Source: Zoogloea sp. 1C4 (GTDB lineage: Bacteria; Pseudomonadota; Gammaproteobacteria; Burkholderiales; Rhodocyclaceae). From it: a stretch of 64,000 bases of DNA. Positions 1,496-14,586 of this stretch are shown here, in pieces. The notes beneath the pieces are model-generated. The model saw only the letters and a list, made by a program, of their open reading frames with translations. It made no database searches and had not been told where the DNA came from. The stretch is taken from contig NZ_SSXU01000015.1 of assembly GCF_009469605.1 (NCBI RefSeq), positions 1 to 64,000 on the forward strand. Direction: 5' to 3'. Within the stretch, counting starts at the first letter, position 1; the number at the start of each line of letters is the position of its first letter. A program made the translations under genes and the position numbers.

Positions 1496-2056
1496 ATGTC
1501 TGCAATCGTCGCCTACGTCCGCGTCTCCACCGACGACCAAACCTGTGAGAACCAGCGCCGCACCATCTCGGCACGCTACACCGTGGGGAAGTGGTTCTCT
1601 GACGATGGCGTGTCGGGTGCGGTGGCTGCTACCCAGCGCCCGGCCATGTCCGCCCTGCTCGCCTACGTGCGCGAAGGTGACGTGGTGATCGTCGCAGCAA
1701 TCGACCGTCTGGGCCGCAACACCATTGACGTGCTCTCGACGGTGGAAGCCCTGAAGGCGAAGGGCGTCTCGGTCGTCTCGATGCGGGAAGGCTTCGACCT
1801 GGCGACACCGGCCGGCAAGCTCATGCTCACGATGCTGGCCGCAGTGGCGGAACTGGAACGGGAAAACCTCAAGGCCCGCCAGCTCGCGGGGCTTGAGCGA
1901 GCAAGGGCCGAAGGCAAGAGCCTTGGGCGAACCAAGGCCATTGATGATGCCGCCGTGGTCGCATGGCGTGCGGAACACTCTGCCAGCATCAAGGCGACTG
2001 CGGATCACTTCGGAATTTCGGCCGCAAGCGTGAAACGGGCTTGCAGCAAGGGCTAA
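1496..2056 (+). CDS. Serine site-specific recombinase (resolvase/invertase type)
   Basis: The 186-residue protein has the small serine recombinase architecture. The catalytic domain has the nucleophile Ser11 in YVRVST, followed by conserved GDVVIVAAIDRLGRN and the long E helix (KLMLTMLAAVAELERE). A C-terminal helix-turn-helix covers about residues 160-184 (IKATADHFGISAASVKRA). Such enzymes resolve cointegrates or invert DNA by double-strand exchange through a phosphoserine link. Length is normal and the catalytic residues are present, so it may be active. No transposase is in view. The TTTTGAG cluster upstream is a plausible target. It marks the right part of the mobile-element remnant. Confidence 0.88.
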   Translation: MSAIVAYVRVSTDDQTCENQRRTISARYTVGKWFSDDGVSGAVAATQRPAMSALLAYVREGDVVIVAAIDRLGRNTIDVLSTVEALKAKGVSVVSMREGFDLATPAGKLMLTMLAAVAELERENLKARQLAGLERARAEGKSLGRTKAIDDAAVVAWRAEHSASIKATADHFGISAASVKRACSKG

Positions 2057-2091
2057 ATGCAAAGCACGAACACGGTCAGGCGTGTGGCTGG

Positions 2092-2122
2092 CACAATCGC
2101 TGAAACCCCTTCAGCGATTGTG
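2092..2122 (+). terminator. 13-bp hairpin between recombinase and xth
   Basis: CACAATCGCTGAA (2092-2104) and TTCAGCGATTGTG (2110-2122) form a perfect stem with a 5-nt loop. No T-run follows. A short direct repeat GTAGCTAA (2122 and 2133) comes next. It may end recombinase transcription. It also lies where the mobile element should meet conserved chromosome, so the junction may be here. Confidence 0.45.
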
Positions 2123-2191
2123 TAGCTAAGAGCGTAGCTAACAGCAAAACTAAAACGCGAAACCCGCTCCACTACTGGATTTCAAGCCTTC

Positions 2192-2950
2192 ATGAAGATC
2201 GCCACCTGGAACGTCAACTCCCTCAAGGTCCGCCTGCCCCACGTGCTCGACTGGCTGGCCGTCAACCAGCCGGACGCCCTGTGCCTTCAAGAGCTCAAGT
2301 GCGAGAACAAGGCCTTTCCCCTGGCCGAGATCGAAGCTGCCGGCTATCAGGCCCAGTTCAACGGCCAGAAGACCTACAACGGCGTGGCCATCCTCACCCG
2401 CAAGCCGCTGGCCGACGTGAGCTTCGACATCCCCGGCTTTGCCGACGACCAGAAGCGCATCATCGCCGGCACGCTCGACGGCGTGCGCATCGTGTGCGGC
2501 TACTTCCCCAACGGGCAGGCGGTCGGTTCCGACAAGTTCGCCTACAAGCTGGCCTGGCTCGAAGCCCTCACTGGCTGGCTGCGCGCCGAGCTGCTCGTCA
2601 CGCCCCGGCTGGTGCTGGCCGGCGACTACAACATCGCCCCTGAAGACCGCGACGCCCACCCAGACTGGGAGCACGAGATCCACGTCTCGGTGCCCGAGCG
2701 CGACGCCTTCAAGGCGCTGCTGGGGCTGGGCCTCGTGGATGCCTTCCGGCTCTTCGAGCAGCCCGAAAAAAGCTTCTCCTGGTGGGATTACCGGATGATG
2801 GCCTTCCGCCGCAACTTCGGCCTGCGCATCGACCACCTGCTGGTGTCGCCGCCGCTGGCCGAAAAGTGCACCGCCTGCGTGGTGGACAAGACCCCGCGCA
2901 AGCTCGAACGCCCCTCGGATCACGCCCCCGTGATCGTCGAGTTCGCCTGA
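2192..2950 (+). CDS. xth: Exodeoxyribonuclease III
   Basis: This 252-residue enzyme belongs to the exonuclease III/AP endonuclease family, which cuts at abasic sites and removes 3' blocks during base-excision repair in the cytoplasm. Hallmarks run in order: ATWNVNSLKVR, the metal-binding Glu in LQELK, YNGVAILTR, GDYNIAPEDRDAH, FSWWDYR, and the catalytic RIDHLLVS and PSDHAPV near the C-terminus. Length is typical. It starts the conserved chromosomal block after the mobile remnant. The Crp/Fnr-type gene follows after only 3 nt, so the two are probably co-transcribed. Confidence 0.93.
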   Translation: MKIATWNVNSLKVRLPHVLDWLAVNQPDALCLQELKCENKAFPLAEIEAAGYQAQFNGQKTYNGVAILTRKPLADVSFDIPGFADDQKRIIAGTLDGVRIVCGYFPNGQAVGSDKFAYKLAWLEALTGWLRAELLVTPRLVLAGDYNIAPEDRDAHPDWEHEIHVSVPERDAFKALLGLGLVDAFRLFEQPEKSFSWWDYRMMAFRRNFGLRIDHLLVSPPLAEKCTACVVDKTPRKLERPSDHAPVIVEFA

Positions 2951-2953
2951 GCC

Positions 2954-3616
2954 ATGAACACCGACGCCCTGCCGGCCACGCTGCCCGCCCTCTACCCGAT
3001 CCTCGCCGCGCTGCCCGAGGCCGCCCGCCAGCGCCTGGCCGAGCGCGCCCGGAAGATGCAGCTGCCGCCCGGCACGCCGGTGTTCGACGAGCGCCAGTCG
3101 TGCCAGGGCTTCCCCTTCGTGATCGACGGCAGCATCCGCGTCGTCAAGGCCGCCCCCAACGGACGCGAGCTGCCGCTGTACCGGGTCGCCCCGGGTGAGA
3201 CCTGCGTGATCTCCTCGGCCTGCCTGCTCGGCCACACGCCCTACAACGCCCGCGGCATCACCGAGACCGACACCACCCTGCTGGTGCTGCCCAGCGCCGA
3301 TTTCCAGGCCCTGCTGGCCGAGCCAGCGTTTCGGGATTTCGTGTTCCAGCTGTTCTCCGAGCGCATCGCCGATCTCATGCAGCTGATCGAAGAGGTGGCC
3401 TTTCGAAAGCTCGACCAACGCCTCGCCGCGCTGCTGCTGGGCAAGGGCCAGCGCCTGCACACCACCCATCAGCAGCTCGCCGACGAGCTTGGCAGCGTGC
3501 GCGAGATCGTCTCCCGGCTGCTCAAGAACTTCGCCGCCCAGGGGCTCGTTGCCCTGTCGCGGGAGCAGATCGAAATCCTCGACCCGGCCGGCCTGCGCCG
3601 GGTTGCCGGCGGCTGA
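2954..3616 (+). CDS. Crp/Fnr-family transcriptional regulator
   Basis: The 220-residue protein has an N-terminal cyclic-nucleotide-binding-like beta roll (about residues 15-135, including VIDGSIRVVKAAPNGREL and YRVAPGETC) and a C-terminal Crp-type winged helix. The recognition region is HQQLADELGSVREIVSRLLK. It lacks the clustered N-terminal cysteines of classical FNR, so an oxygen-sensing iron-sulfur cluster is unlikely. The ligand is unknown. It sits 98 nt upstream of a DUF2892 gene, and a TGTAACC/GGTTACA palindrome lies between them. Regulators of this type next to DUF2892 or rhodanese-like genes are common in betaproteobacteria. Control of the neighbour is inference. Confidence 0.85.
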   Translation: MNTDALPATLPALYPILAALPEAARQRLAERARKMQLPPGTPVFDERQSCQGFPFVIDGSIRVVKAAPNGRELPLYRVAPGETCVISSACLLGHTPYNARGITETDTTLLVLPSADFQALLAEPAFRDFVFQLFSERIADLMQLIEEVAFRKLDQRLAALLLGKGQRLHTTHQQLADELGSVREIVSRLLKNFAAQGLVALSREQIEILDPAGLRRVAGG

Positions 3617-3634
3617 TCCGCCATCCGGCGGCTA

Positions 3635-3650
3635 TGTAACCTTGGTTACA
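3635..3650. promoter_or_regulatory. Candidate Crp/Fnr-type operator
   Basis: TGTAACCTTGGTTACA has 7-bp perfect arms and a TT centre. It lies about 65 bp upstream of the DUF2892 start and just downstream of the regulator gene. Its size and TGT/ACA ends fit a dimeric Crp/Fnr-family site. The neighbouring regulator is the obvious candidate protein. Confidence 0.5.
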
Positions 3651-3714
3651 GACGCCCCAAGCAGCAGATGCTGAAATACGCTCACTCAACTAACCAGTGC
3701 GCCAGGAGGCCATC

Positions 3715-3906
3715 ATGAAGACGAATGTGGGCGGTATCGACAAGGTTTTGCGGATTGGCGCAGGTGTGGCGCTGGTGGCCTGGGCGGCCCTCGGCGGCCC
3801 GGTTTGGGCGTGGATCGGCGTCGTGCCGCTGGCCACCGGCCTCACCGGCTTCTGCCCGGTCTATCCGCTGCTGGGCATGAACACCTGCCCCATGAAGAAG
3901 GACTGA
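3715..3906 (+). CDS. DUF2892 small inner-membrane protein
   Basis: The 63-residue protein begins with the DUF2892 signature MKTNVGGIDKVLRIGAG. Two hydrophobic segments follow (about residues 15-30 and 33-50), then TGFCPVYPLLGMNTCP near the end. The conserved CPVY and NTCP cysteines are typical of the family, which also occurs as the C-terminal membrane part of YgaP-like rhodaneses. The function is not known. ATG 3715 is chosen because a strong CAGGAGG ribosome site precedes it. The gene has its own terminator, and the Crp/Fnr-type palindrome upstream suggests separate regulation. Confidence 0.85.
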   Translation: MKTNVGGIDKVLRIGAGVALVAWAALGGPVWAWIGVVPLATGLTGFCPVYPLLGMNTCPMKKD

Positions 3907-3940
3907 GCATCCGCCGGCGGCCTGCGCCGCCCGATGTCGA

Positions 3941-3977
3941 AACCCGGCTCCGCCCTGTGGCGCAGCCGGGTTTTTTT
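3941..3977 (+). terminator. Strong intrinsic terminator
   Basis: AACCCGGCT (3941-3949) pairs with AGCCGGGTT (3964-3972), followed by an uninterrupted run of seven T. It ends the DUF2892 transcript. Confidence 0.85.
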
Positions 3978-4116
3978 ACGACATTTAACGGCAGATGGCT
4001 GCGTGTTTTGCAAACTTTTGTCCCTCTTGCAGACGTTGCCACAGGGCATCCTGGCGCCCCCTCCTATCCTGCGGCGGTCCCGTTCCGGGCTCAACTCGCA
4101 AGAAAGGATAACAACG

Positions 4117-4890
4117 ATGAACAAGATTTCCATGCTGGGCATCGCCTCCCTGCTGGCCTGCGGTAGCGCCTTTGCCGACGCGCCGCCCGCCGATGGCCAG
4201 TGGCGCGGCGCCGGTGGTGCCGGCATGTCGATGTCCACCGGCAACGCCCGCAACAGCAGCCTGAACCTGGTGGTGGACGCCGCCCGCGTCACCGCCGTGG
4301 ACAAGCTGTCGGTGTACGGCCAGGCCCTGTTCGCCCAGTCGAAGAAGGACAACGACACCAGCACCACCGCCAACATGTGGCGCGCTGGCACCCGCTACGA
4401 CCACAACCTCAACGAGCAGCTCTTCGGTTTCGGCGGCCTCGACCTGGAACACGACCAGCTCAAGCACCTCGCCCTGCGCGGCGTGCTGAGCGGCGGCCTG
4501 GGCTACCACCTCATCAAGAACGCCGACACCACCTGGGACGTCTTCGGCGGTGTGGCCTACAAGATGGATCGCTACATGTCGCCCGGCGTGATCATCGACA
4601 ACGACAGCCGCCGCAGCTACACCAGCCCCGAGCTGATCCTCGGCGAGGAATCCACCCACCGCCTCACCGAGACCACCAGCTTCCGCCAGCGTCTGGTGCT
4701 GTTCCCCAACCTGCGTGACACCGGCGAATACCGCGCGATCTTCGACGCCGGACTGGCCGTCGCCATCAACAAGACGATGAACCTGACGCTCAGCTTCCAG
4801 GATCGCTACGACAGCCTCGCCACGTCCCCGGCCAAGCAGAACGACACCCTGTTCATCGCTGGCGTGAACGTGAAGTTCGGCGCCCAGTAA
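4117..4890 (+). CDS. DUF481 family outer-membrane beta-barrel protein
   Basis: The 257-residue protein starts with a Sec signal peptide (residues 1-20, cleavage after AFA). It continues with alternating beta-strand patterns typical of DUF481/YdiY-like barrels, such as NMWRAGTRYDHNLNEQLFGF, YKMDRYMSPG and RLVLFPNLRDTGEYRAIFDAGLAVAI. It ends in an outer-membrane-like strand (VNVKFGAQ). The role of the family is unclear, and salt-induced expression is reported for some members. ATG 4117 follows an AGAAAGGA ribosome site; the upstream in-frame extension has no signal peptide. It stands alone and is convergent with the TolC gene. Confidence 0.8.
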   Translation: MNKISMLGIASLLACGSAFADAPPADGQWRGAGGAGMSMSTGNARNSSLNLVVDAARVTAVDKLSVYGQALFAQSKKDNDTSTTANMWRAGTRYDHNLNEQLFGFGGLDLEHDQLKHLALRGVLSGGLGYHLIKNADTTWDVFGGVAYKMDRYMSPGVIIDNDSRRSYTSPELILGEESTHRLTETTSFRQRLVLFPNLRDTGEYRAIFDAGLAVAINKTMNLTLSFQDRYDSLATSPAKQNDTLFIAGVNVKFGAQ

Positions 4891-4902
4891 GCTGCACCAC
4901 CC

Positions 4903-4930
4903 TGCGTGCTGCTCGCCCGGGCGGCACGCA
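4903..4930. terminator. Hairpin between convergent DUF481 and tolC-like genes
   Basis: TGCGTGC (4903-4909) and GCACGCA (4924-4930) flank an internally palindromic CGCCCGGGCG. There is no strong T-run on either side. Its placement between two converging stop codons suggests bidirectional termination. Confidence 0.4.
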
Positions 4931-4942
4931 TCCTACGCGCCT

Positions 4943-6367
4943 TCAGCGCACGCTCCAGAACCCGATCCGCCCCAGGCTGGCCGCCAGCCGCAGCCGCGTT
5001 GCCCGCCACGTTGCCAGGGTATTGATGCGCTGCTGGGCCGCGTCGGCCATCGCGCGCTGGGCCTCCAGCAGCTCGAGGGTCGAACCCACGCCCGCCTTGA
5101 AGCGCCCTTGGGCCACCTCCAGGGATTTGGTGGCGTAACCCAGGAGCTTCTCGGTGCTGCCCAGGGCCTGGGTCTCGCTCTGCAGGCCCTGCCAGGCCTG
5201 CCAAACCTCCAGCGCCACCTTCTGCTCCACGCTCTGCAAATCGGCCGACGCCAGATCGAACTCGGCCTTCGCAGCGCGGGTCTGGTAGTGGCGCGAGAAG
5301 CCGTCGAAGATCGGTACCGAGAGCTGCAGCGCCACGCTGCGGTCGCGCTGGGCGATGTCCGGCAGATCGGCGCTGAAGTCGCGCCCTGTGTGGCTGCGGC
5401 TCGCCGCCACGCTGAGGGTCGGCAGGTAGGCCCGCTCGGCCACCGCGATGCGCGACCGGGCGGCCGCCAGCCGCGCGCGGGCCGCGGCGAGCTCCGGATG
5501 GCTGGCCTGGGCCAGCTCGAGCATCTCGCCCACGCCCTTCACGAAGCTCGTATCCGGCAGCCGGGCGTCGTCCGCATCCACCGCCAGCGGGCGATCCGGC
5601 GATTCGCCGATCGCCACCGCCAGCCGGCCGCGGGCGTTGGCCAGCGTGCCCTCGGCCCGCACCCGGGCCAGCACGGCCTGGGCGAAGGCGGTCTGGGTCT
5701 GCAGCTTGGAGGTCAGGTCGCCCACCCCGGCCGCGTGCTTGGCCTCGGCCGACATGAAGCTCTGCAGGTTGATGCGCTCCACCTCCTGGGCCACCGCCAG
5801 CTCGCCCTGGGCGCTGAGGAGCGCGAAGTAGGCGTTGGCGGCGTCGAGAAAGACCGTCTGCACGCCCAGGTTCTGGCTGGCGACGGCGGCCAGCAGGGTC
5901 TGGCGGACGCTGTCCACGTTGGCCTCGCGCTGGCCAAAATCGAACAGGTTCCAGGCGAGGTCGAACTGGGCGACGCGGCTTGAGCCGTCGTTGCGCGCCG
6001 TGCTGCCGCCCTGGGCAACCGTCTGGCCAGTCTTCGCCCGCGAGAGCGTGCCGTTGATGGTCGGCAGATAAGCCGACCGGGCCGCGCCCAGCCGGGCCGC
6101 CTGAAGCTGGCTCTCCGCCCACGCCGCGCGAGTGCGCGGATCGCGGCACAGGGCGCGCTTGACCACCTCGGCAAGGCTGATCGTGCCGCCCGCCACTGGC
6201 GCCGGCAGCGGCCCCGGGCAGGCCGGGCCGCCCACCAGCTCGGCGTCCAGCGGCAACTGGCCCGGCTGGGGCAGGCTCGCCAGATCACGCCCGCTCACCA
6301 GCGGATCGAAGGCGGCGGCGCTGCCCCAGGCAGCCGCGAACATCAGGGCCAGGGCGAGGCGGCGCAT
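4943..6367 (-). CDS. TolC-family outer-membrane channel of a peptide exporter
   Basis: The 474-residue protein is a type I secretion outer-membrane factor. A signal peptide (residues 1-19) is followed by two repeats of the outer-membrane-efflux fold, with long coiled-coil helices rich in Ala, Gln and Glu. Typical stretches are FDLAWNLFDFGQREANVDS in the first half and LSVPIFDGFSRHYQTRAAKAE in the second. It ends in LRLAASLGRIGFW. Its start overlaps the stop of the ABC transporter gene by 1 nt (TGATG), so they are translationally coupled. A dedicated channel in the same operon as the ABC and adaptor genes means that this exporter need not borrow the housekeeping TolC. Confidence 0.9.
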   Translation of the reverse strand: MRRLALALMFAAAWGSAAAFDPLVSGRDLASLPQPGQLPLDAELVGGPACPGPLPAPVAGGTISLAEVVKRALCRDPRTRAAWAESQLQAARLGAARSAYLPTINGTLSRAKTGQTVAQGGSTARNDGSSRVAQFDLAWNLFDFGQREANVDSVRQTLLAAVASQNLGVQTVFLDAANAYFALLSAQGELAVAQEVERINLQSFMSAEAKHAAGVGDLTSKLQTQTAFAQAVLARVRAEGTLANARGRLAVAIGESPDRPLAVDADDARLPDTSFVKGVGEMLELAQASHPELAAARARLAAARSRIAVAERAYLPTLSVAASRSHTGRDFSADLPDIAQRDRSVALQLSVPIFDGFSRHYQTRAAKAEFDLASADLQSVEQKVALEVWQAWQGLQSETQALGSTEKLLGYATKSLEVAQGRFKAGVGSTLELLEAQRAMADAAQQRINTLATWRATRLRLAASLGRIGFWSVR

Positions 6368-8529
6368 CAGGAGGCCTCCGCCACGGCCGGCGCACCGTTC
6401 TGGCGAGCCAGCAGCTCGGTGATGGTCATGTCCTCCACCACCTTGCCGCCGCCCAGCGCCACCACGCGCTCGGCGCTGAGGATGGTCTCGGGCCGGTGGG
6501 CGATCAGGATGCGGGTCAGGTTGAGGGACTGGATGGCCTGGTTCACGGCCTGCTCCTTTTCCACGTCCAGGTGGCTGGTGGCTTCGTCGAGGATCAGGAT
6601 GCGCGGCCGCTTGTACAGCGCCCGGGCCAGGAACAGGCGCTGCTTCTGCCCGCCCGAGAGCACCGTACCCATGTCGCCCACCAGCGTGTTGTAGCCCATC
6701 GGCAGCGCCGCGATCTCTTCGTGCACCTGGGCCATGCGGGCGCATTCCTCGATGCGGGCGCGGTCCGGCGTCGGGTCGAAGAAGCAGATGTTGTCGGCGA
6801 TGGAGCCGGCAAACAGCGTGTCGTCCTGCATCACGGTGCCCACCACGCTGCGCATCGCCTCGCCGCCGTTGCGACGCAGGCTGGCGTCGCCGATCATCAC
6901 GTCGCCCTCGCCGGGCGGAAACACGCCGAGGATCAGGTTGATGAGCGTGGTCTTGCCGCAGCCCGACGGGCCCACGAAGGCCACCGACTGGCCCGGCGGG
7001 ATGGTCAGGTCGATGCCGTCCACGACCCACGGGTCGGTCTCGGCGTAGCGGAAGCGCACGCCCTGCAGGCGGATCTCCGGCACCGGCACGGTGTCGGCGG
7101 TCTGAGCCAGGGCTGGCGCGGATTCGGGCTTGGTAAGCACGATGTCGGCCAGCCGCTCGCCCTGCAAACGCAGCATGCGCAGCTCGAAATACTTTTCCAC
7201 CAACCCGGCAACGCGGTTGTCGAACTGGTCCTTGTAGGCCTTGAAGGCCATCAGCACGCCAACGGTCATCGCCCCGTCGAGCGCCAGCCGGGCCCCCATC
7301 CACAGGATGGCGATGCCGACGAGCCCGAAAAGCAGCCCGTTGGTGGTCTGGAAGGCGATGGACAGGCGCTGGGTGCGCACGCCGGCATTGACCTGCTCGG
7401 CCACCAGCCCGAGCCAGCTCGAACGCCGCTCATTCTGGCGCTGGAACAGCTTGACCGCCTTGATCCCGCGCACCGTCTCGAGGAAGTGCGACTGCTGGCT
7501 GGCGTGATGGACGATCTCCTGCTCGGTGGCGAGGCGCAACGGGCGGAACCACATCGCGCGGATCAGCCCGTAGGCGACCATCGCCCCCACCGCCAGCCAG
7601 GCCAGCGGCGGGCTGTAGATGAACATCATGGCCAGCGTGACCGCCGACATCAGCCCGTCGATCAGCGCCGAGAAGAAGGACGCGGTGAGCTTGGACTGAA
7701 TCTCGTCCACCGCCCCGAAGCGCGACACGATGTCGCCCAGATGGCGGCGCTCGAAGTACGACACCGGCAGCCGCACCAGATGGGCGAACACGTTGGTGCG
7801 CCACTGCAGGCTGAGGTTGGTGCCGATGTGCAGCAGGATCCACGAACGCAGTGCGCCGAAGATCTCCTGAATGATGAGCAGCAGCCCGAAGCCCAGCGCC
7901 AGCGTGGTGAGCAGGTCGCGGTCGGCCGACACCAGCACGTGGTCGATCACCCACTGCAGGTAGAAGGGGCTGACCAGCGCGAAGATCTCCAGCGCCACCG
8001 CCAGCGCCAGCACCTGGGCACCGGCGCCGAGCAGGCCATCGACGCGGCCGATGAGATCGCGAAAACGGATCGCCGGCGGCGGCGCCGAGGGTTTGAAATC
8101 GGCCGACGGCCACAGCTCCAGCGCCACGCCGGTAAAGCTGCGCGAGGTCTCGTCCAGACTCACCCGACGCAGCCCGCTGGCCGGATCATGGATGAGCAGG
8201 CCGCGGCGGGTCACCTTCTTGAGCACCACGAAGTGGTTGAGGTTCCAGTGCAGGATGCACGGCGTGCGCAGCTGGTCCAGGTCTTCCAGATCCAGCCGCA
8301 GCGGCCGGCTGGCGAGACCCAGGGCGCCCGCGATGCCGATCAGCTGGCCGAGGGTGGCGCCATGCTGGGAGATCGAAAACTGGCGCCGCAGCTGGGCCAG
8401 ATCGGTGCGCCGGCCGTGGTAGCCGGCCACCATGCCGAGACAGGCGAGGCCGCACTCGGTGGCTTCGGTCTGCAGGATGACCGGCAGGCTGCGGCCAAGG
8501 AAAGGGGGCAGGCTCGGGATCAGGGACAT
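6367..8529 (-). CDS. Peptidase-containing ABC transporter (C39 bacteriocin/microcin exporter)
   Basis: The 720-residue protein has three parts. Residues 1-140 are a C39 cysteine peptidase with Gln20, catalytic Cys26 (EATECGLACLGM), His99 (NHFVVL) and Asp115 (HDPASG), so it should be active. Residues about 165-445 are six membrane helices. Residues 485-720 are the ATPase, with Walker A GPSGCGKTT (520-528), signature LSGGQ (624-628), Walker B ILILDE (644-649) and His678. Such proteins (CvaB, NisT/LagD relatives) cut the leader after a Gly-Gly motif and export the peptide. The matching GG-leader peptide is encoded at the head of the operon. The adaptor gene ends 25 nt upstream. Confidence 0.95.
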   Translation of the reverse strand: MSLIPSLPPFLGRSLPVILQTEATECGLACLGMVAGYHGRRTDLAQLRRQFSISQHGATLGQLIGIAGALGLASRPLRLDLEDLDQLRTPCILHWNLNHFVVLKKVTRRGLLIHDPASGLRRVSLDETSRSFTGVALELWPSADFKPSAPPPAIRFRDLIGRVDGLLGAGAQVLALAVALEIFALVSPFYLQWVIDHVLVSADRDLLTTLALGFGLLLIIQEIFGALRSWILLHIGTNLSLQWRTNVFAHLVRLPVSYFERRHLGDIVSRFGAVDEIQSKLTASFFSALIDGLMSAVTLAMMFIYSPPLAWLAVGAMVAYGLIRAMWFRPLRLATEQEIVHHASQQSHFLETVRGIKAVKLFQRQNERRSSWLGLVAEQVNAGVRTQRLSIAFQTTNGLLFGLVGIAILWMGARLALDGAMTVGVLMAFKAYKDQFDNRVAGLVEKYFELRMLRLQGERLADIVLTKPESAPALAQTADTVPVPEIRLQGVRFRYAETDPWVVDGIDLTIPPGQSVAFVGPSGCGKTTLINLILGVFPPGEGDVMIGDASLRRNGGEAMRSVVGTVMQDDTLFAGSIADNICFFDPTPDRARIEECARMAQVHEEIAALPMGYNTLVGDMGTVLSGGQKQRLFLARALYKRPRILILDEATSHLDVEKEQAVNQAIQSLNLTRILIAHRPETILSAERVVALGGGKVVEDMTITELLARQNGAPAVAEAS

Positions 8530-8554
8530 GGGCGGGAACAGGTTGAGGTCGGCA

Positions 8555-9820
8555 TCACAGCTTGCCGGTGATGCTGATGAGGGGCTCGAGCACCCATTCG
8601 TAGAGCTTGCGGCGCTCCTGCATGATGTCGGCCTGCAGCTGCATGCCCACCTGCAGCGGGCGCGCCTCGCCGTAGGCCTGGATGGTCTGGGCGTCCAGGT
8701 CGGCGGTGATGCGATACACCGGCTCGGCGCTGGCCGTCTCGCTCATCAGGCCGAGGGCCGACAGCTCCTGGCTGGACAGCGACACCCGCGCCACCTGGGC
8801 CACCCGGCCCGGCAGGTGGCCGAACTTCTGGTAGGGGTAGGGATCGAGGCGGATCATCACCCGATCGCCCTCCCGCACGAAGCCCACCGCCTTGCTGGGC
8901 GCAAACAGATAGGCCTGCAGCCGCCCGCCCGGCGGCACGATGGACACCACCGGCCGGCTGCCGTCGACGCTGTGGCCCACTTCGGCGGTCACCGCGGTGG
9001 CCACGCCATCCCGCGGAGCAACCACCAGCACCTGACGGCGCAGTTCGCTCTCGACCAGCTCCTGATCGGTGCTCGACAGGCCCCGGCGCAGCTCGGAAAT
9101 CTGTTTGGACTGCTCCAGCGGCAGGCGCGTAAGCTCGCCCCGCAGCAGGGTGAGTTCGCGCTGCACATTGAGCCGGTCCCGCTCCAGCGCCTGCAGGCGC
9201 GAGCGCTGGTCGATCAGGTCGGCCTCGCGCAGCTGCACCTGCTCGGCGGCGATGTAGTCCTTGTCGAGCAGGCCCTTGTAGCGGCGCAGGGTGTCCTCGG
9301 CCAGCGCGACGCGGCTCTTCTGGCCGTCGATGGACTGAGCGATGACGCGCAGCTCGGCATCGAAGGCGGCCTCCTTGCGCTGCAGGTTGGCGCGCTGCTC
9401 GATCTGCAGGGATTCGGTCTTGCCCAGCTCGGCGCGCAGGCTGTTGCGACGGGCGGTGACCTGCTCCGAGATTCCAGCCAGCCCGCTGGACGCGGTGTCG
9501 CTCCGGCGGTCGAGGGACAGCACATAGAGCACGTCGCCCTGGCGCACGGCCTGCCCTTCCTGCACGCGCTTCTCCACCACCACCCCGGCCTCGCGGGGAT
9601 AGACCTTCGACCATCCGCCGGCGGGCAGCAGCTGGCCCGGCACGGTGGCTCGCTTGGTGTAGCTGCCAAAGGCAAAGAAGGCGATCAGCGCCGCGCCGCA
9701 CAGGGCTGCGACAAGCGCGAACACCGCAAAGGACAGCGGCTGGGCCAGCACCACGGGCCCGAGCCAGTTGGTCCGCTGGGCCTCGAGGGCTTCGGTTCGA
9801 AACAGGGAATCGTCGTTCAC
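8555..9820 (-). CDS. HlyD-family periplasmic adaptor of the peptide exporter
   Basis: The protein (421 residues from the GTG chosen here) has one N-terminal membrane anchor (about residues 25-50) and a lipoyl-like half (VVVEKRVQEGQAVRQGDVLYVL). A long coiled-coil hairpin follows (about 110-260), then the second lipoyl half and beta-barrel (VVAPRDGVATAVTAEVGHSVDG). It bridges the ABC transporter to the TolC channel. I prefer GTG 9820 because the resulting N-terminus (MNDDSLFRTEALEAQ) resembles CvaA-type adaptors; a TTG at 9832 is an alternative. No strong ribosome site is visible for either. It is the second gene of the operon, 220 nt after the precursor. Confidence 0.9.
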   Translation of the reverse strand: MNDDSLFRTEALEAQRTNWLGPVVLAQPLSFAVFALVAALCGAALIAFFAFGSYTKRATVPGQLLPAGGWSKVYPREAGVVVEKRVQEGQAVRQGDVLYVLSLDRRSDTASSGLAGISEQVTARRNSLRAELGKTESLQIEQRANLQRKEAAFDAELRVIAQSIDGQKSRVALAEDTLRRYKGLLDKDYIAAEQVQLREADLIDQRSRLQALERDRLNVQRELTLLRGELTRLPLEQSKQISELRRGLSSTDQELVESELRRQVLVVAPRDGVATAVTAEVGHSVDGSRPVVSIVPPGGRLQAYLFAPSKAVGFVREGDRVMIRLDPYPYQKFGHLPGRVAQVARVSLSSQELSALGLMSETASAEPVYRITADLDAQTIQAYGEARPLQVGMQLQADIMQERRKLYEWVLEPLISITGKL

Positions 9821-9961
9821 GGAATGCGGCAATCAGCGCTGGGCGGGGTCATGGCGCGCAGGATGGCAGCGCTGCCCGAAACGGGCGAAGAACTATTCCA
9901 TAGGGAACAGCGCCAATCCGGCCAGAGCGTGCGAAATGACCTACTGCCTGGAAATGACAAC

Positions 9962-9988
9962 GGGCCACCTCGAGAACCGGGGTGGCCC
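9962..9988 (-). terminator. Hairpin between precursor and adaptor gene (attenuator candidate)
   Basis: On the minus strand, GGGCCACC and GGTGGCCC arms (plus positions 9962-9969 and 9981-9988) form an 8-bp stem. It is followed by GTTGTCATTTCC, which has only scattered T. It lies 52 nt after the precursor stop. Partial termination here would give much more peptide mRNA than exporter mRNA. The rest of the 9821-10040 gap holds no convincing gene. Confidence 0.5.
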
Positions 9989-10040
9989 ATCGGTGCCGGG
10001 CACCTCAAAAGGCGACCGGCTCAACCCGATTCAGCAGCGA

Positions 10041-10253
10041 TCAGCAGCCGTACTTCGGGGCGGTGTAGCAGGTGGTCGGAGCCGGCTGGCAGGGGGTGGG
10101 GGCCGGCTGACAGGGCGTCGGGGCCGGGGTGCTGCAGGACTTGAACAGGCTGGAGAGCAGGTTCAGCTTGAAGGACAGCAGGCCACCGAGCAGACAGAAG
10201 GTGCCACCGGAAACGTTCTGGACTTCCTTGGCGGACAGTTCGCGAATAGCCAT
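10041..10253 (-). CDS. Double-glycine secreted peptide precursor (class II microcin-like), Cys/Pro-rich
   Basis: A 70-residue precursor. Residues 1-17 (MAIRELSAKEVQNVSGG) are a classical double-glycine leader, very like microcin V type leaders (RELxxxEVxxVSGG), with the predicted cut after Gly17. The 53-residue mature part starts TFCLLGGLLSF and has a hydrophobic stretch to about residue 37. Its tail has six cysteines in total (20, 40, 48, 55, 62, 70) and two tandem CQPAPT[PT] heptads. ATG 10253 is chosen because GTGAGG lies 8 nt upstream and the leader begins there; an upstream in-frame start adds 16 residues without a ribosome site. It heads the exporter operon. No modification enzyme is nearby, so cysteines may form disulfides. 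Activity and immunity are unknown. Confidence 0.85.
   Translation of the reverse strand: MAIRELSAKEVQNVSGGTFCLLGGLLSFKLNLLSSLFKSCSTPAPTPCQPAPTPCQPAPTTCYTAPKYGC
10071..10112 (-). repeat. Two 21-bp in-frame repeats encoding CQPAPT heptads
   Basis: Reading on the minus strand, codons 48-54 and 55-61 of the precursor form two tandem 21-nt units. They encode CQPAPTP and CQPAPTT. A third, diverged unit (CYTAPKYG) follows and a related one (CSTPAPTP) precedes. Differences between units are mostly synonymous (TGT/TGC, GCC/GCT, CCC/CCG), which suggests the peptide repeat is kept by selection. Confidence 0.7.
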
Positions 10254-10399
10254 TTGAAACCTCACTTGGTTGATTGAAGGCGAAAATTTTATTTGCCGCA
10301 ACGCCCCGGAGTGGGTTTCGCTGCGACACCTCCAATCTATTCGTCCCCTGCCGGGCGGGCCGTGATGTATTCACGCCCCTGGAAGCCTATTTTTCAAAT

Positions 10400-10449
10400 T
10401 TGACAGCAACCAACAAAACCACCCGAAAGACATCTTTAACTGCTGTCAA
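10400..10449 (-). promoter_or_regulatory. AT-rich leader region of the peptide operon with a 9-bp inverted repeat
   Basis: The 213-nt gap between ksgA and the precursor is clearly richer in A/T than its surroundings. TTGACAGCA (10400-10408) and TGCTGTCAA (10441-10449) are perfect inverted copies 32 nt apart. The distal copy reads as a consensus -35 (TTGACA) on the minus strand but no good -10 sits 16-18 nt away. A TAAAAT (plus 10286-10291) closer to the gene could be a -10. I infer that the operon promoter and a regulator site lie here. Confidence 0.35.
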
Positions 10450-10466
10450 TTTACGGGTTTTGCCGA

Positions 10467-11258
10467 TTAACCCGATTTTTTCGCCACGTGATTGGCGATG
10501 CGCACGAAGTCCTCGACGCTCAGGCGTTCGCCGCGCAGGCCGGGGTCGATCGCCAGCGCGGTGAAATCCCCTTCGTCGAGGTAATCCCGCAGGGTGTTGC
10601 GGAGGGTCTTGCGGCGCTGGCCGAAAGCCGCGGTGACGATCTTGCCCAGCAGCGCGTAGTCGTCGGCGGTGCATTCGGCTGCCGGGCGCGGCACCATCCG
10701 CACGATGCTCGACATCACCTTGGGCGCGGGCCGGAAGGCCCCCGGCGGCACGTCGAACAGCCGGGCCATGTTGAAGCGATACTGGAGCATCACCGACAGC
10801 CGGCCGTACTCCTCGGTGCCGGGCTCGCCCACCATGCGCATCACCACCTCCTTCTGCAGCATGAAGGTCATGTCCTTCACCTTCTCGGCAAACTCGGCCA
10901 AGTGAAACAGGATCGGGGTGGAGATGTTGTAGGGCAGGTTGCCCACCACCCGCAGCGGCACGCCGTCGGGCACGATGCTGGCGAAATCGAACTTCAGCGC
11001 GTCGCCCTCGTGGATGGTCAGCCGCTCGGGCGGGTGCTTCTCCTTGAGGCGCGCGATGAGGTCGCGGTCGATCTCCACCACGTGCAGGTGGCCCATGGCC
11101 TCCATCAGCGGCTCGGTCATGGCGCCGAGGCCGGGGCCGATCTCGACGATGCGCTCGCCCTCCTTGGGGCGGATCGCCTCGATGATCTTGCGGATGATGT
11201 TGGGGTCGGACAGGAAGTTCTGGCCAAAGCGCTTGCGCGCCTGATGTTGCTCGCTCAT
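10467..11258 (-). CDS. ksgA: 16S rRNA dimethyladenosine transferase KsgA/RsmA
   Basis: The 263-residue enzyme dimethylates two adjacent adenosines near the 3' end of 16S rRNA during 30S maturation, using S-adenosylmethionine. Diagnostic motifs are RFGQNFL (residues 10-16), the SAM-binding EIGPGLGAMT (39-48), VVEIDRDL and the catalytic NLPY (107-110). I chose ATG 11258 because GGAAGGAAA precedes it at good spacing; an in-frame start 27 nt upstream would add a non-conserved extension. It is the last gene of the lptD-surA-pdxA block. In enteric bacteria apaG-apaH follow, but here the peptide-export operon does. Confidence 0.95.
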   Translation of the reverse strand: MSEQHQARKRFGQNFLSDPNIIRKIIEAIRPKEGERIVEIGPGLGAMTEPLMEAMGHLHVVEIDRDLIARLKEKHPPERLTIHEGDALKFDFASIVPDGVPLRVVGNLPYNISTPILFHLAEFAEKVKDMTFMLQKEVVMRMVGEPGTEEYGRLSVMLQYRFNMARLFDVPPGAFRPAPKVMSSIVRMVPRPAAECTADDYALLGKIVTAAFGQRRKTLRNTLRDYLDEGDFTALAIDPGLRGERLSVEDFVRIANHVAKKSG

Positions 11259-11306
11259 CCGGGTTTCCTTCCGGTGTGGTTGCACTGCCCGTGGCGGGCA
11301 GCGGTG

Positions 11307-12185
11307 TCAGTTCCTGCGTTCCCAGGCGGCGATGGCCTCGCGCACCCGCGGCACGGCGGCAAAGCCGGCCTTCTCGCCTTCGAGGATGGCCTCGTGGCGC
11401 TGCTGGAAGTTGGTGGCCGCAAGGCCGCGCAGCTCGGGGCGGATCACGATGTCGGCGGCAGTGAGCTCGTGCTTGCCGAGCGCCCCGCCCATGATCGAGA
11501 TGGTGTCGAGGAGCAGGTCCAGCGTGCCCTGATTACGCTTGCCGCTGGGGCGCGCCGAGATGTCCACGGCGATCACCAGATCGGCGCCCAGCGCGCGCGC
11601 CTCGCGGGCCGGGATCGGTGCCACCAGGCCGCCGTCCACGTATTCGCGCCCGCCGATGACGACCGGCGGAAAGACGCCGGGGATCGACGACGAGGCTCGC
11701 ACCGCAGTGCCGGTGTTGCCGCGCTGGAAAACGATCGGCTCGCCACTCGCCAGATCGGTGGCGACCGCGGCAAAGCGGCGCTTCAGGCCATCGATGGGGC
11801 GGTTGCCCACGTTGGCGTTGATGAACTGCTCCAGCCGCTCGCCCTTGATCACGCCGCGATCGAACAGGCTCCAGTCGGTGACGGACGCCTCATCGAGCTG
11901 GATCGCCAGCTTCTGCAGCTCGAAAGGCCCGTGGCCGGCGGCGTAGAGGGCGCCGACCACCGAACCGGCGCTGGTGCCGATCACGATGTCGGGCGCGATG
12001 CCGCTGGTCTCCAGCGCCTTGATGACGCCGATGTGGGCAAATCCGCGGGCCGCGCCACCGCCCAGGGCCAGCGCGATCTTCGGCTTGCGGGCGATGCGCG
12101 GCTCGGGCTTGACCGGCTGGGCGCCGCAGGCCGCGAGGCCCAGCGCGGCAAAGCCGCCCAGAAGGATGCGACGACGGTCGATCAT
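11307..12185 (-). CDS. Patatin-like phospholipase lipoprotein
   Basis: The 292-residue protein has a lipoprotein signal ending in the lipobox LAAC (Cys20) after an RRR start, so it is probably membrane-anchored in the envelope. The patatin domain shows the oxyanion loop GGGAARG (42-48), the nucleophile Ser72 in GTSAG and the catalytic Asp184 in DGG, so the Ser-Asp dyad is intact. Relatives (RssA/NTE group) hydrolyse acyl esters of phospholipids or related lipids. It overlaps the end of pdxA by 4 nt (ATGA), inside the otherwise standard pdxA-ksgA junction. The substrate is unknown; neighbours lptD and surA point to envelope maintenance, but that is inference. Confidence 0.88.
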   Translation of the reverse strand: MIDRRRILLGGFAALGLAACGAQPVKPEPRIARKPKIALALGGGAARGFAHIGVIKALETSGIAPDIVIGTSAGSVVGALYAAGHGPFELQKLAIQLDEASVTDWSLFDRGVIKGERLEQFINANVGNRPIDGLKRRFAAVATDLASGEPIVFQRGNTGTAVRASSSIPGVFPPVVIGGREYVDGGLVAPIPAREARALGADLVIAVDISARPSGKRNQGTLDLLLDTISIMGGALGKHELTAADIVIRPELRGLAATNFQQRHEAILEGEKAGFAAVPRVREAIAAWERRN

Positions 12186-13165
12186 GCCCGCCCCCGCGCC
12201 TTGGCCATGGTGATGGCCAGCTCGACGGCAGCGAACAGGCTGCCCGGATCGGCGCGGCCGGAGCCGGCGAGATCCAGCGCGGTGCCGTGGTCGACGGAGG
12301 TGCGGATGATCGGCAGGCCGAGGGTGACATTCACCCCGCCGCCGAAACTGGCGTGCTTGAGCACCGGCAGGCCCTGGTCATGGAACATCGACAGCACCGC
12401 GTCGCCCTGCTGCAGGGTGTGGGGCACGAACAGGGTGTCGGCGGGCAGCGGGCCGACGAGATCCATGCCCTCGGCGCGGAGTTGTTCGAGCACCGGGATG
12501 ATGGTGTCGATCTCTTCGGTGCCCATGTGGCCGCCTTCGCCCGCGTGGGGGTTGAGCCCGGCGACGAGGATGCGCGGCGCCGGCAGGCCGAAGTCGCGCA
12601 CCAGATCGGCGTGGAGGATGCGCAGGGTGTCGCTGAGGAGCGGCCGGGTGATGGCGGCGGACACGTCCTTCAGCGGCAGGTGCGTGGTGACCAGCGCCAC
12701 GCGCATCCCGCCGCCCACCAGCATCATCACCACCAGCGGCGTGCCGGTGGCTTCGGCGAGGTATTCGGTGTGGCCGGAGAAAGGCACACCCGCATCGCAG
12801 ATGATGCCCTTGTGCACCGGCGCAGTGACCATCCCGGCGAACTCGCCCGACTTGCAGCCGGCGATGGCCCGGTCGAGGATGTCGAGCACGTAGCGGCCAT
12901 TGGCGGCGTCGAGCCTGCCGGGCACGGCGGGCACGGCCAGCGGCACGTGCAGGACTTCGATCGCGCCGGGCCGGGCGCTGCCGCCGGGCTGGTAGTCGAT
13001 CACGTCGACCGAGGGTTCGACGGCATGAACCCGCGCCGCGATCATCGCCCGATCGCCCAGCACGACCAGCCGCGCGGGCCATTCATGCCGCGGCAAGGCC
13101 GCACAGAGATCGGGACCGACGCCGGCCGGCTCGCCGCTGGTGATGGCCAGGATGGGATGGGACAT
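12182..13165 (-). CDS. pdxA: 4-hydroxythreonine-4-phosphate dehydrogenase PdxA
   Basis: The 327-residue enzyme oxidises 4-phosphohydroxy-threonine with NAD in the pyridoxal phosphate pathway. Typical stretches are ILAITSGEPAGVGPDL at the N-terminus, GHTEYLAEATG, the metal-binding LVTTHLPLKDV, NPHAGEGGHMGTEE and MFHDQGLPVLKH near the end. ATG 13165 is preferred; the TTG 27 nt upstream lacks family support. It lies in the conserved surA-pdxA-ksgA order and overlaps the patatin gene by 4 nt. A hairpin at 13198-13223 separates it from surA. Confidence 0.95.
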   Translation of the reverse strand: MSHPILAITSGEPAGVGPDLCAALPRHEWPARLVVLGDRAMIAARVHAVEPSVDVIDYQPGGSARPGAIEVLHVPLAVPAVPGRLDAANGRYVLDILDRAIAGCKSGEFAGMVTAPVHKGIICDAGVPFSGHTEYLAEATGTPLVVMMLVGGGMRVALVTTHLPLKDVSAAITRPLLSDTLRILHADLVRDFGLPAPRILVAGLNPHAGEGGHMGTEEIDTIIPVLEQLRAEGMDLVGPLPADTLFVPHTLQQGDAVLSMFHDQGLPVLKHASFGGGVNVTLGLPIIRTSVDHGTALDLAGSGRADPGSLFAAVELAITMAKARGRA

Positions 13166-13197
13166 GATGTTCAGGGCTTTCGGGAGCTTCAAGGGCG

Positions 13198-13223
13198 AAG
13201 GGCTGGCACCTGGGCCAGCCCTT
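13198..13223 (-). terminator. 10-bp hairpin between surA and pdxA
   Basis: AAGGGCTGGC (13198-13207) pairs with GCCAGCCCTT (13214-13223) around 6 nt. No T-run follows on the minus strand, so it may be an mRNA-stability or processing hairpin, or a weak attenuator, instead of a full terminator. Confidence 0.4.
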
Positions 13224-13273
13224 TGTCGGGAATCACCGCGGGCCCGACGGCGAGGGCCGTCGAGCCGGGCGGC

Positions 13274-14569
13274 TTACTTGTCTTCGAGCCGGTATTCGAC
13301 GTAGGCCCGGTCGCGCAGCTGGCGCAGCCAGTCCTGGTAGGCCTCGTCGGACTTGCGCTCGCGCAGGGCGTTGCGGGCGGCGGCGCGCTTGCGGTCGTCG
13401 GAGACATCCTGCACCCGGCGTTCCTCGACGAGGATCAGGTGCCAGCCAAAGGGCGATTTGACGGGCTGGCTGAGCTCGCCGGGCTTGAGGGCGTCCATGG
13501 CCTGCTCGAAATCGGGCACGGTGTCGCCCGGGTAGATCCAGCCCAGATCGCCACCCTTGGCGGCGGAGATGTCGGCGGAGTGCTGGCGGGCCAGATCGGC
13601 AAAGCTGGCTCCACCCTGGACGACGCGCTCGCGCAGGTCGGTGAGGCGGCGCTTCGCGTCGGCGTCGGACACCACTTCGCTGGTCTTGATCAGGATGTGG
13701 CGGGCGTGGGTCTGCTGCACCTGGGCGGGCGGCACACCCTGGCTGCCGCCCTTGCGCTCGATCATCTTGACCAGGTGGAAGCCCGCCGCGCTGCGCAGGA
13801 TCGGGGTGACCTCACCCGGACGCAGGTTGGCGATGGCCTCGGCGAACAGGCCGGGCAGCCGCTCGGCGCTGCGCCAGCCGATGTTGCCGCCAGACAGGGC
13901 GTCGGGCGCGTCGGAATAGCTGGCAGCGAGTTTGTCGAAGGCTTCGCCCCGGGCGATGCGGGCGGCGACGTCTTCGGCCTTGGCGCGCAGGCGGGCGAGC
14001 TGCTCGGGGCTGGCGCTCTCGGGGGCGCGGAACAGGATGTGGGCGAGGTTGTACTCGGCCTGGCCGACCACGTTCTCGGGGTGGGACAGGAAGTTGTTCA
14101 CCTCGGCGTCGGACACCACGATGCGGCTCTCGACCTCACGCTCGCGCACGCGGCCGAGGAGGATCTCGTTGCGCACTTCCTCGCGGAAGCGTTCCCAGGT
14201 GATGCCGTCCCGCTCGAGGGCTTTGCGGAAATCGGTCATCGACAGCTTGTTGTTGTCGGCGATGCGGCCCAGGGCGCGTTCGAGGGTGACGTCGTCCACC
14301 CGCAGGGAGGTTTCGCCGGCGAGCTGGATCTGCAGGCGTTCGATGATCTGGCGTTCGAGCACCTGACGCTCGAGCACGTCGGACGGCGGCAGCGGCGTGC
14401 CCTGGCGATTCAACTGGCGGGTGACCTGTTCGACCCGCTGACGCAGCTCGGCCTTGGTGATCACCTCGCTGTTGACGACCGCCACGATTCGGTCGACCTC
14501 GACCGGGCTGGCTGCCAGGGTGGCGTGGGCAAACAGGGACGCTGCGATCAGGGTAGCGATGAGTTTCAT
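13274..14569 (-). CDS. surA: Periplasmic chaperone/peptidyl-prolyl isomerase SurA
   Basis: The 431-residue protein has a signal peptide (residues 1-19) and a SurA N-terminal chaperone domain (VDRIVAVVNSEVITKAELRQR). Two parvulin-type PpiC domains cover about residues 175-275 and 285-385 (second one with FADLARQHSADISAAKGGDLGW). SurA escorts outer-membrane proteins, including LptD, through the periplasm to the BAM complex. The gene starts 17 nt after lptD, matching the usual lptD-surA operon. Length is typical. Confidence 0.95.
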   Translation of the reverse strand: MKLIATLIAASLFAHATLAASPVEVDRIVAVVNSEVITKAELRQRVEQVTRQLNRQGTPLPPSDVLERQVLERQIIERLQIQLAGETSLRVDDVTLERALGRIADNNKLSMTDFRKALERDGITWERFREEVRNEILLGRVREREVESRIVVSDAEVNNFLSHPENVVGQAEYNLAHILFRAPESASPEQLARLRAKAEDVAARIARGEAFDKLAASYSDAPDALSGGNIGWRSAERLPGLFAEAIANLRPGEVTPILRSAAGFHLVKMIERKGGSQGVPPAQVQQTHARHILIKTSEVVSDADAKRRLTDLRERVVQGGASFADLARQHSADISAAKGGDLGWIYPGDTVPDFEQAMDALKPGELSQPVKSPFGWHLILVEERRVQDVSDDRKRAAARNALRERKSDEAYQDWLRQLRDRAYVEYRLEDK

Positions 14570-14586
14570 GGGGTTGGGGTGGTCTT

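Follow-up and report, generated by a model that had tools for sequence, protein, structure and literature searches.

The window analysed here – a stretch of 64,000 nucleotides of Zoogloea sp. 1C4 – carries a four-gene cassette that encodes a small peptide with a double-glycine (GG) leader together with an HlyD membrane fusion protein, a C39 peptidase ABC exporter and a TolC outer membrane protein. The initial annotation had placed a 70-residue double-glycine peptide at the head of an hlyD/C39-ABC/tolC unit, and this is confirmed: the peptide gene lies at 10041-10253 on the minus strand and the three export genes have Pfam matches. Judged from sequence, export and processing of the peptide are well supported. 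As to what the peptide does once outside the cell, the annotation had committed to no single function – a reserve with which we agree – and the reading developed below, that of a surface or matrix peptide, is held tentatively: we lean slightly towards it over that of a bacteriocin without linked immunity.

The cassette and its products

The features of the cassette and its upstream neighbour are as follows.

4943-6367, minus strand: TolC/OEP outer membrane protein (Pfam); its first ATG overlaps the stop codon of the ABC gene
6367-8529, minus strand: C39 peptidase ABC exporter with the triad Cys26/His99/Asp115 (Pfam; C39 structure match; McbB match)
8555-9832, minus strand: hlyD, membrane fusion protein (Pfam); the GTG at 9820 is the likelier start
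9958-9992, minus strand: GC-rich stem-loop in the gap between the peptide gene and hlyD; best stem of the gap, without a T-run; its score was matched by none of 100 mononucleotide shuffles
10041-10253, minus strand: peptide gene, 70 amino acids, MAIRELSAKEVQNVSGG followed by TFCLLGG...KYGC
10044-10202, minus strand: 53-residue core, a hydrophobic segment followed by a Cys/Pro repeat tail, with six Cys
10203-10253, minus strand: double-glycine leader MAIRELSAKEVQNVSGG, read from the sequence; pN/pS 0.14 across nine Zoogloea genomes
10467-11264, minus strand: rsmA, upstream of the peptide gene

For each of the hlyD, ABC and tolC products there is at least one Pfam match above cut-off; the GTG at 9820 is preferred as the start of hlyD because it is conserved in nine aligned genomes. 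The exporter's C39 domain can be aligned with C39 domains of solved structure (the best being 6mpz, E 4.6e-25), and the triad of Cys26, His99 and Asp115, described as intact in the initial annotation, is indeed kept in all 13 full exporters aligned: eight of the nine from Zoogloea (the ninth, at L036, is cut by a contig end), two from Pseudacidovorax, those of genomes G042 and G097, and McbB. The best NCBIfam match of the ABC protein is to the NHLP-type exporters (TIGR03796), yet at 509.8 bits it falls under the family cut-off of 853.3 bits. NHLP-type peptides have a long nitrile-hydratase-like leader, unlike the short GG leader found here, and the four-gene unit includes no modifying enzyme. 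The exporter type as such is not rare: of 399 genomes sampled from the order, 36, counting that of the window, have an HlyD relative at E<=1e-60. Elsewhere in the genome of Zoogloea sp. 1C4 (5.0 Mb, 140 contigs) there is just one other C39 match, a degenerate C39-like domain in which the catalytic Cys and His are replaced by Ser and Asn; it belongs to a second ABC exporter (L043:5389-8873, on G000:C53), which adjoins a distant HlyD and which we presume to be of the RTX type.

The leader of the peptide comprises 17 residues, with V at -4, V at -7 and L at -12, and is nearly fixed across Zoogloea and Pseudacidovorax (MAIRELSxxEVxxVSGG). Plain pN/pS ratios, pooled over 36 pairs from the nine Zoogloea genomes, are 0.14 (leader) and 0.65 (core); at the same time, nine of the 12 core columns that are mostly Cys or Pro are invariant in Zoogloea, seven of these nine using two codons. 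The two ratios, together with invariant Cys/Pro columns encoded in two ways, argue that the peptide is more than a chance reading frame. It matches no Pfam or NCBIfam family above cut-off. The best matches below cut-off are to an unrelated Pfam family (E 0.21) and, over the leader, to two bacteriocin families of NCBIfam (E 0.16-0.17). Nor was the peptide found in a literature search that covered titles and the starts of abstracts, plus a text search with three fragments of the peptide family.

Across the 12 Cys/Pro peptides the core is 40-58 residues long, glycine makes up 3-11% of the precursor, and His is absent from every core; in Zoogloea the core is cationic, contains no acidic residues and has a hydrophobic segment. 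In the window the cysteines of the tail are spaced by 8, 7, 7 and 8 residues, just as the initial annotation had it when describing a Cys every 7-8 residues in CQPAPT heptads. That description does not extend to the relatives: CQPAPT heptads occur only in Zoogloea among the loci seen, and the cysteines – four, five, six or seven, an odd number in six of the 12 peptides – are conserved neither in number nor in spacing. It follows that there is no fixed set of intramolecular disulfides, and a fixed disulfide fold was rejected on these grounds. The repeats themselves take the form CxPAPxP in Zoogloea, CxPKPS in Pseudacidovorax and GGxLGTVTGLV in G097. An AlphaFold2 model of the peptide (mean pLDDT 51.9, pTM 0.17), of low confidence throughout, contains one helix at residues 17-35 and a tail devoid of regular structure; such a predicted tail is too uncertain to count for much.

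In the gap between the peptide gene and hlyD the best stem is strong in all 13 cassettes examined. The nine Zoogloea stems are GC-rich, have 11 to 14 pairs and no T-run; the two Pseudacidovorax stems are followed by six T; that of G042 has a T-rich arm, as a terminator would; that of G097 has no T-run. Per 100 mononucleotide shuffles, the stem score is reached by 0-2 in Zoogloea, by 0 in both G042 and G097, and by 5 and 8 in Pseudacidovorax. The stem-loop of the window, which is not among the entries of a general terminator scan, is presumed to be an attenuator or an RNA 3' end. A promoter scan found nothing. By eye, short blocks look conserved in Zoogloea on the minus strand of two gaps: TCACG followed by TATAGTG/TAGATTG before the peptide gene (10253-10460), and TCACGC followed by GAATAGTTC before hlyD (9840-9990). 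They might be two promoters of one type.

Distribution, empty sites and divergence of the core

The peptide occurs in nine of 23 Zoogloea genomes (the window's included). These are exactly the nine that carry this hlyD, and in each there is one strong match, always between rsmA and hlyD. A search at E<=1e-30 found this hlyD in the nine carriers (76-100% identity) and in none of the 14 others, some of which are incomplete (G001, 72%; G016, 80%; G009, 89%). Dedicated export is supported by these data – peptide and hlyD are found together in nine genomes and neither is found in 14 – and by the fact that the other C39 domain of the genome has no catalytic Cys or His.

At 12 of the 14 cassette-free genomes the site is empty: the next genes after rsmA, within about 60-415 bases, are yg-crp-exoA in 11 genomes and DUF481-yg-crp in the twelfth. 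As for the other two, G012 has a different neighbour and in G001 the contig ends. On a tree built from rsmA and its upstream neighbour (22 genomes; G001, being cut, was left out), cassette presence needs five changes, gains and losses counting alike, against a mean of 7.2 for shuffled labels; starred branches force four of the five. Presence in Zoogloea is patchy.

Searches outside the genus recovered few further peptides. Among 60 relatives, the window's genome included, 26 matched at E<=0.1; the ten with E<=1e-5 were accepted (the window, eight of 22 other members of the genus, and G042 from another family) and 16 were dropped. In the sample of 399 genomes from the order, nine matched at E<=0.01 and six were dropped, so that the peptide is present in at least three: the window, G042 and G097, the last recognised by the leader alone. 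In the sample of 299 genomes from the phylum four matched at E<=0.001; it is present in at least two (the window and G042), the tail-only matches in G705 and G862 having been discarded as low-complexity. With up to 15 and up to 20 candidates scored per genome, respectively, these counts are lower bounds, and on them the peptide is rare in both samples. The named loci number ten, eight from Zoogloea and two from Pseudacidovorax. Plasmids and phages gave no peptide match at E<=0.1 (BLAST, low-complexity filter on) and none of 20 pattern matches in viral contigs was confirmed; carriage as cargo of a mobile element or phage was rejected on this basis.

Twelve window proteins (2192-14569) were compared with 13 longer loci. 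Zoogloea loci have rsmA upstream and yg-crp-exoA downstream in common wherever the contig reaches, and only hlyD, ABC and tolC are common to the window and the loci of Pseudacidovorax, G042 and G097, where a GG peptide gene adjoins hlyD. The four-gene set with related peptides is found in two Pseudacidovorax loci and G042. G097 has no close peptide core despite a leader of the form MAIxELNKQEIxVVSGG and an exporter of the same type (hlyD 49%, ABC 62%, tolC 41%). When all 98 window ORFs of at least 30 aa (2000-14600) are compared with the loci of Pseudacidovorax, G042 and G097, matches fall over the four cassette genes; the sole exception, in L039, is weak and out of frame (E 4.8e-4) and is attributed to chance. 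The DUF481 protein (3934-4890) was dismissed as a part of the system: the cassettes of L034 and L040 do not have it as a neighbour, and the cassette-free genome G005 does contain it.

Two further arrangements deserve mention. G097 (contig G097:C10) has two GG peptides, one encoded before hlyD and one after tolC (L044:6738-6962 and L044:1113-1358), with a similar leader and an unrelated Gly/Val/Leu cargo of GGxLGTVTGLV repeats, about 11 residues each, without cysteine. Other HlyD relatives, at L080 and L081 (G048 and G051), have at least two GG peptides as neighbours, and the cores of these are diverse.

On the flanks the window and G014 group together as sisters (100/100), and their rsmA and hlyD DNA is 94-96% identical; the block between these genes, comprising the peptide and its gaps, is 74-81% identical. 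The HlyD, ABC and TolC proteins of the pair are 94-98% identical. For G010 and G003 the values are 92-93% for the flanks and 83-93% for the peptide block. The core tree pairs G014 with G002, and the grouping of the window with G014 is rejected at p-AU 0.039 – a weak test, of a group chosen after seeing the data. Peptide alleles have likely been exchanged by recombination.

Immunity genes and comparison with known systems

No linked immunity gene was found in the gaps and neighbourhoods of the cassettes, either in the comparison of 98 ORFs or in hydropathy scans. Between 4890 and 11300 hydropathy revealed no TM-like ORF of 51-216 aa besides the peptide's own frame. The rsmA-peptide and peptide-hlyD gaps of the nine Zoogloea cassettes wholly contain 46 ORFs of at least 20 codons; four are as long as 51 aa, the lower size limit in the literature, and a 19-residue hydropathy window marks not one of the 46 as TM-like. 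The remaining gaps (ABC-tolC in eight cassettes, tolC to the next gene in seven, hlyD-ABC in two) held no listed ORF candidate. Several genomes share a short ORF whose start lies in or near the stem-loop; it has no TM character, is absent from L036 and L037, and is at most a doubtful candidate for an immunity gene. Further, between the window and G014 the core differs although HlyD, ABC and TolC remain 94-98% identical, so that no cassette protein covaries with the cargo in the way expected of a specific immunity protein. The Zoogloea cassette contrasts with L090 (G168:C10), where a very Gly-rich GG peptide (2781-3116, minus strand) lies beside a related HlyD and, just upstream (about 3119-3574, minus strand), a 151-residue ORF shows hydrophobic stretches by eye: the pair looks like a microcin and its immunity gene.

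Over 695 aligned positions the ABC protein shares 52% identity with McbB; HlyD is 39% identical to McbA. Both belong to the MCB system, mcbABCI, of Moraxella catarrhalis pLQ510, which likewise unites HlyD and a C39-ABC exporter with a GG-leader peptide (the ORF ...MRELLLDEVRSISGG, taken to be McbC from its place before an overlapping 74-codon ORF). Inactivation of mcbA, mcbB or mcbC "eliminated the ability", by the context of the passage, to kill another strain (PMC2761928). In the MCB system the peptide gene follows the exporter, mcbI overlaps mcbC, and no tolC is annotated within the 7,689 bases shown; in the Zoogloea cassette the peptide comes first, tolC is included, and no immunity gene overlapping or adjoining the peptide gene was found. 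The two cores, compared by eye, look unrelated.

Class II microcins are described, in passages of PMC9746304, as having five components including a cognate immunity protein, with the proviso that perhaps not all microcins come with one. Passages of PMC11494933 give a glycine content of 12-26% (candidates at 8-10% were also kept) and a short leader that ends in GG or GA with hydrophobic residues at -4, -7 and -12. The Zoogloea cassette resembles microcin V and the other class II microcins in its short GG leader, the hydrophobic positions of that leader, the C39-ABC exporter with its triad, the membrane fusion protein HlyD and TolC; it is set apart by published features, in that no immunity gene was found near the peptide gene and glycine amounts to 3-11%, and by its Cys/Pro repeat core. 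The "class II microcin-like" of the initial annotation is accordingly retained for the leader and for the export apparatus, kinship to McbB included, and weakened by the glycine content and by the lack of a detected linked immunity gene: with two features of the class failing, it is the microcin label that is lowered, and not the claim that the peptide is exported like a microcin.

A different precedent is offered by EbfG1-4 of Synechococcus elongatus, GG peptides whose efficient export depends on the C39 protein PteB and without which biofilm does not form; EbfG4 is found on the cell surface and in the matrix, and EbfG1-3 form amyloid (passages of PMC4997328 and PMC9981879). A Pro-rich EbfG1 fragment, TTYNPPSYPYPSYPK, is reported in PMC4997328, from whose main text the word "immunity" is absent. 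The likeness – both are small GG peptides in whose export a C39 protein would assist – is one of description, and the systems differ in that EbfG comprises four peptides in one operon, with amyloid shown for EbfG1-3.

The role of the peptide outside the cell

That the peptide is cut after Gly17 and its core released is well supported, by homology, through the C39 alignment, the triad retained in 13 of 13 exporters, the 52% identity to McbB and the effect of mcb inactivation. We propose that the four-gene cassette makes a GG-leader peptide, which the C39 domain of its own ABC exporter, by homology to a proven exporter, would cut after Gly17; the HlyD/TolC channel, by the same homology, would release the 53-residue Cys/Pro-rich core outside the cell. 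The stem-loop 3' of the peptide gene probably lets the peptide exceed the exporter. Once outside, the hydrophobic segment may insert or aggregate, and the flexible Pro-rich tail would present cysteines able to form intermolecular disulfides: the core would then function in the manner of the Synechococcus EbfG peptides and not as a toxin with a linked immunity gene.

If the core acts in this way – an analogy to which we give a little short of an even chance – then it is a surface or matrix peptide, a role suggested by the missing immunity gene, by cysteines that are variable and often odd in number, and by the low complexity of the repeats. Zoogloea is a genus of floc growth in activated sludge; the cassette, being missing from 14 of 23 genomes, cannot be needed for floc growth in general. 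It also speaks against a surface or matrix role that the characterised relative of the exporter carries a true bacteriocin, and that patchy presence and a faster-changing core suit a competition factor as well. Indeed, a narrow-spectrum bacteriocin of the microcin or MCB kind, with immunity conferred by an unlinked gene, by the exporter or by a target absent in the producer, is a possibility that we rate only slightly lower: the exporter's kinship to McbB and McbA of the MCB bacteriocin system (passages of PMC2761928), the cationic core with its hydrophobic segment, the presence/absence polymorphism at one site, the low identity of the peptide block relative to rsmA and hlyD in the window and G014, and the leader's weak matches to bacteriocin families, far below cut-off, are all consistent with it, whereas the lack of a detected counterpart to mcbI, the low glycine and the constancy of the other cassette proteins between the window and G014 are not what it predicts.

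A core that changes faster behind a nearly fixed leader, and a patchy distribution, would also suit a peptide that is secreted as a signal or for kin recognition and that other cells sense; the comparison of loci found no receptor, kinase or regulator gene common to cassettes of different genera, and we regard this role as improbable. Much the same applies to an extracellular metal-binding (thiol) peptide, for which four to seven cysteines on a Pro-rich tail might seem well suited. Thiols tend to oxidise outside the cell, which argues against it, as do the His-free cores and the lack, in the same comparison, of a metal regulator, reductase or uptake gene common to cassettes of different genera; its probability is similarly slight.

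The surface or matrix reading, which we prefer, may be taken one step further, to a doubtful generalisation: that the cassette represents an undescribed family of exported Cys/Pro-repeat peptides, each with its own C39 exporter and no immunity, that would form a disulfide-crosslinked polymer at the surface or in the matrix, one leader-and-exporter chassis carrying different repeat cores in different lineages. Should the peptide be a bacteriocin, it would have a new type of core and unlinked immunity, in a bacterium important for wastewater treatment. The usual presumption is that GG peptides with C39 exporters are bacteriocins; the Zoogloea cassette has no detectable linked immunity gene and sits in a floc-forming genus, with natural carriers and empty sites among related genomes, so that a role of such exporters in building surfaces or matrices, too, becomes directly testable in proteobacteria.
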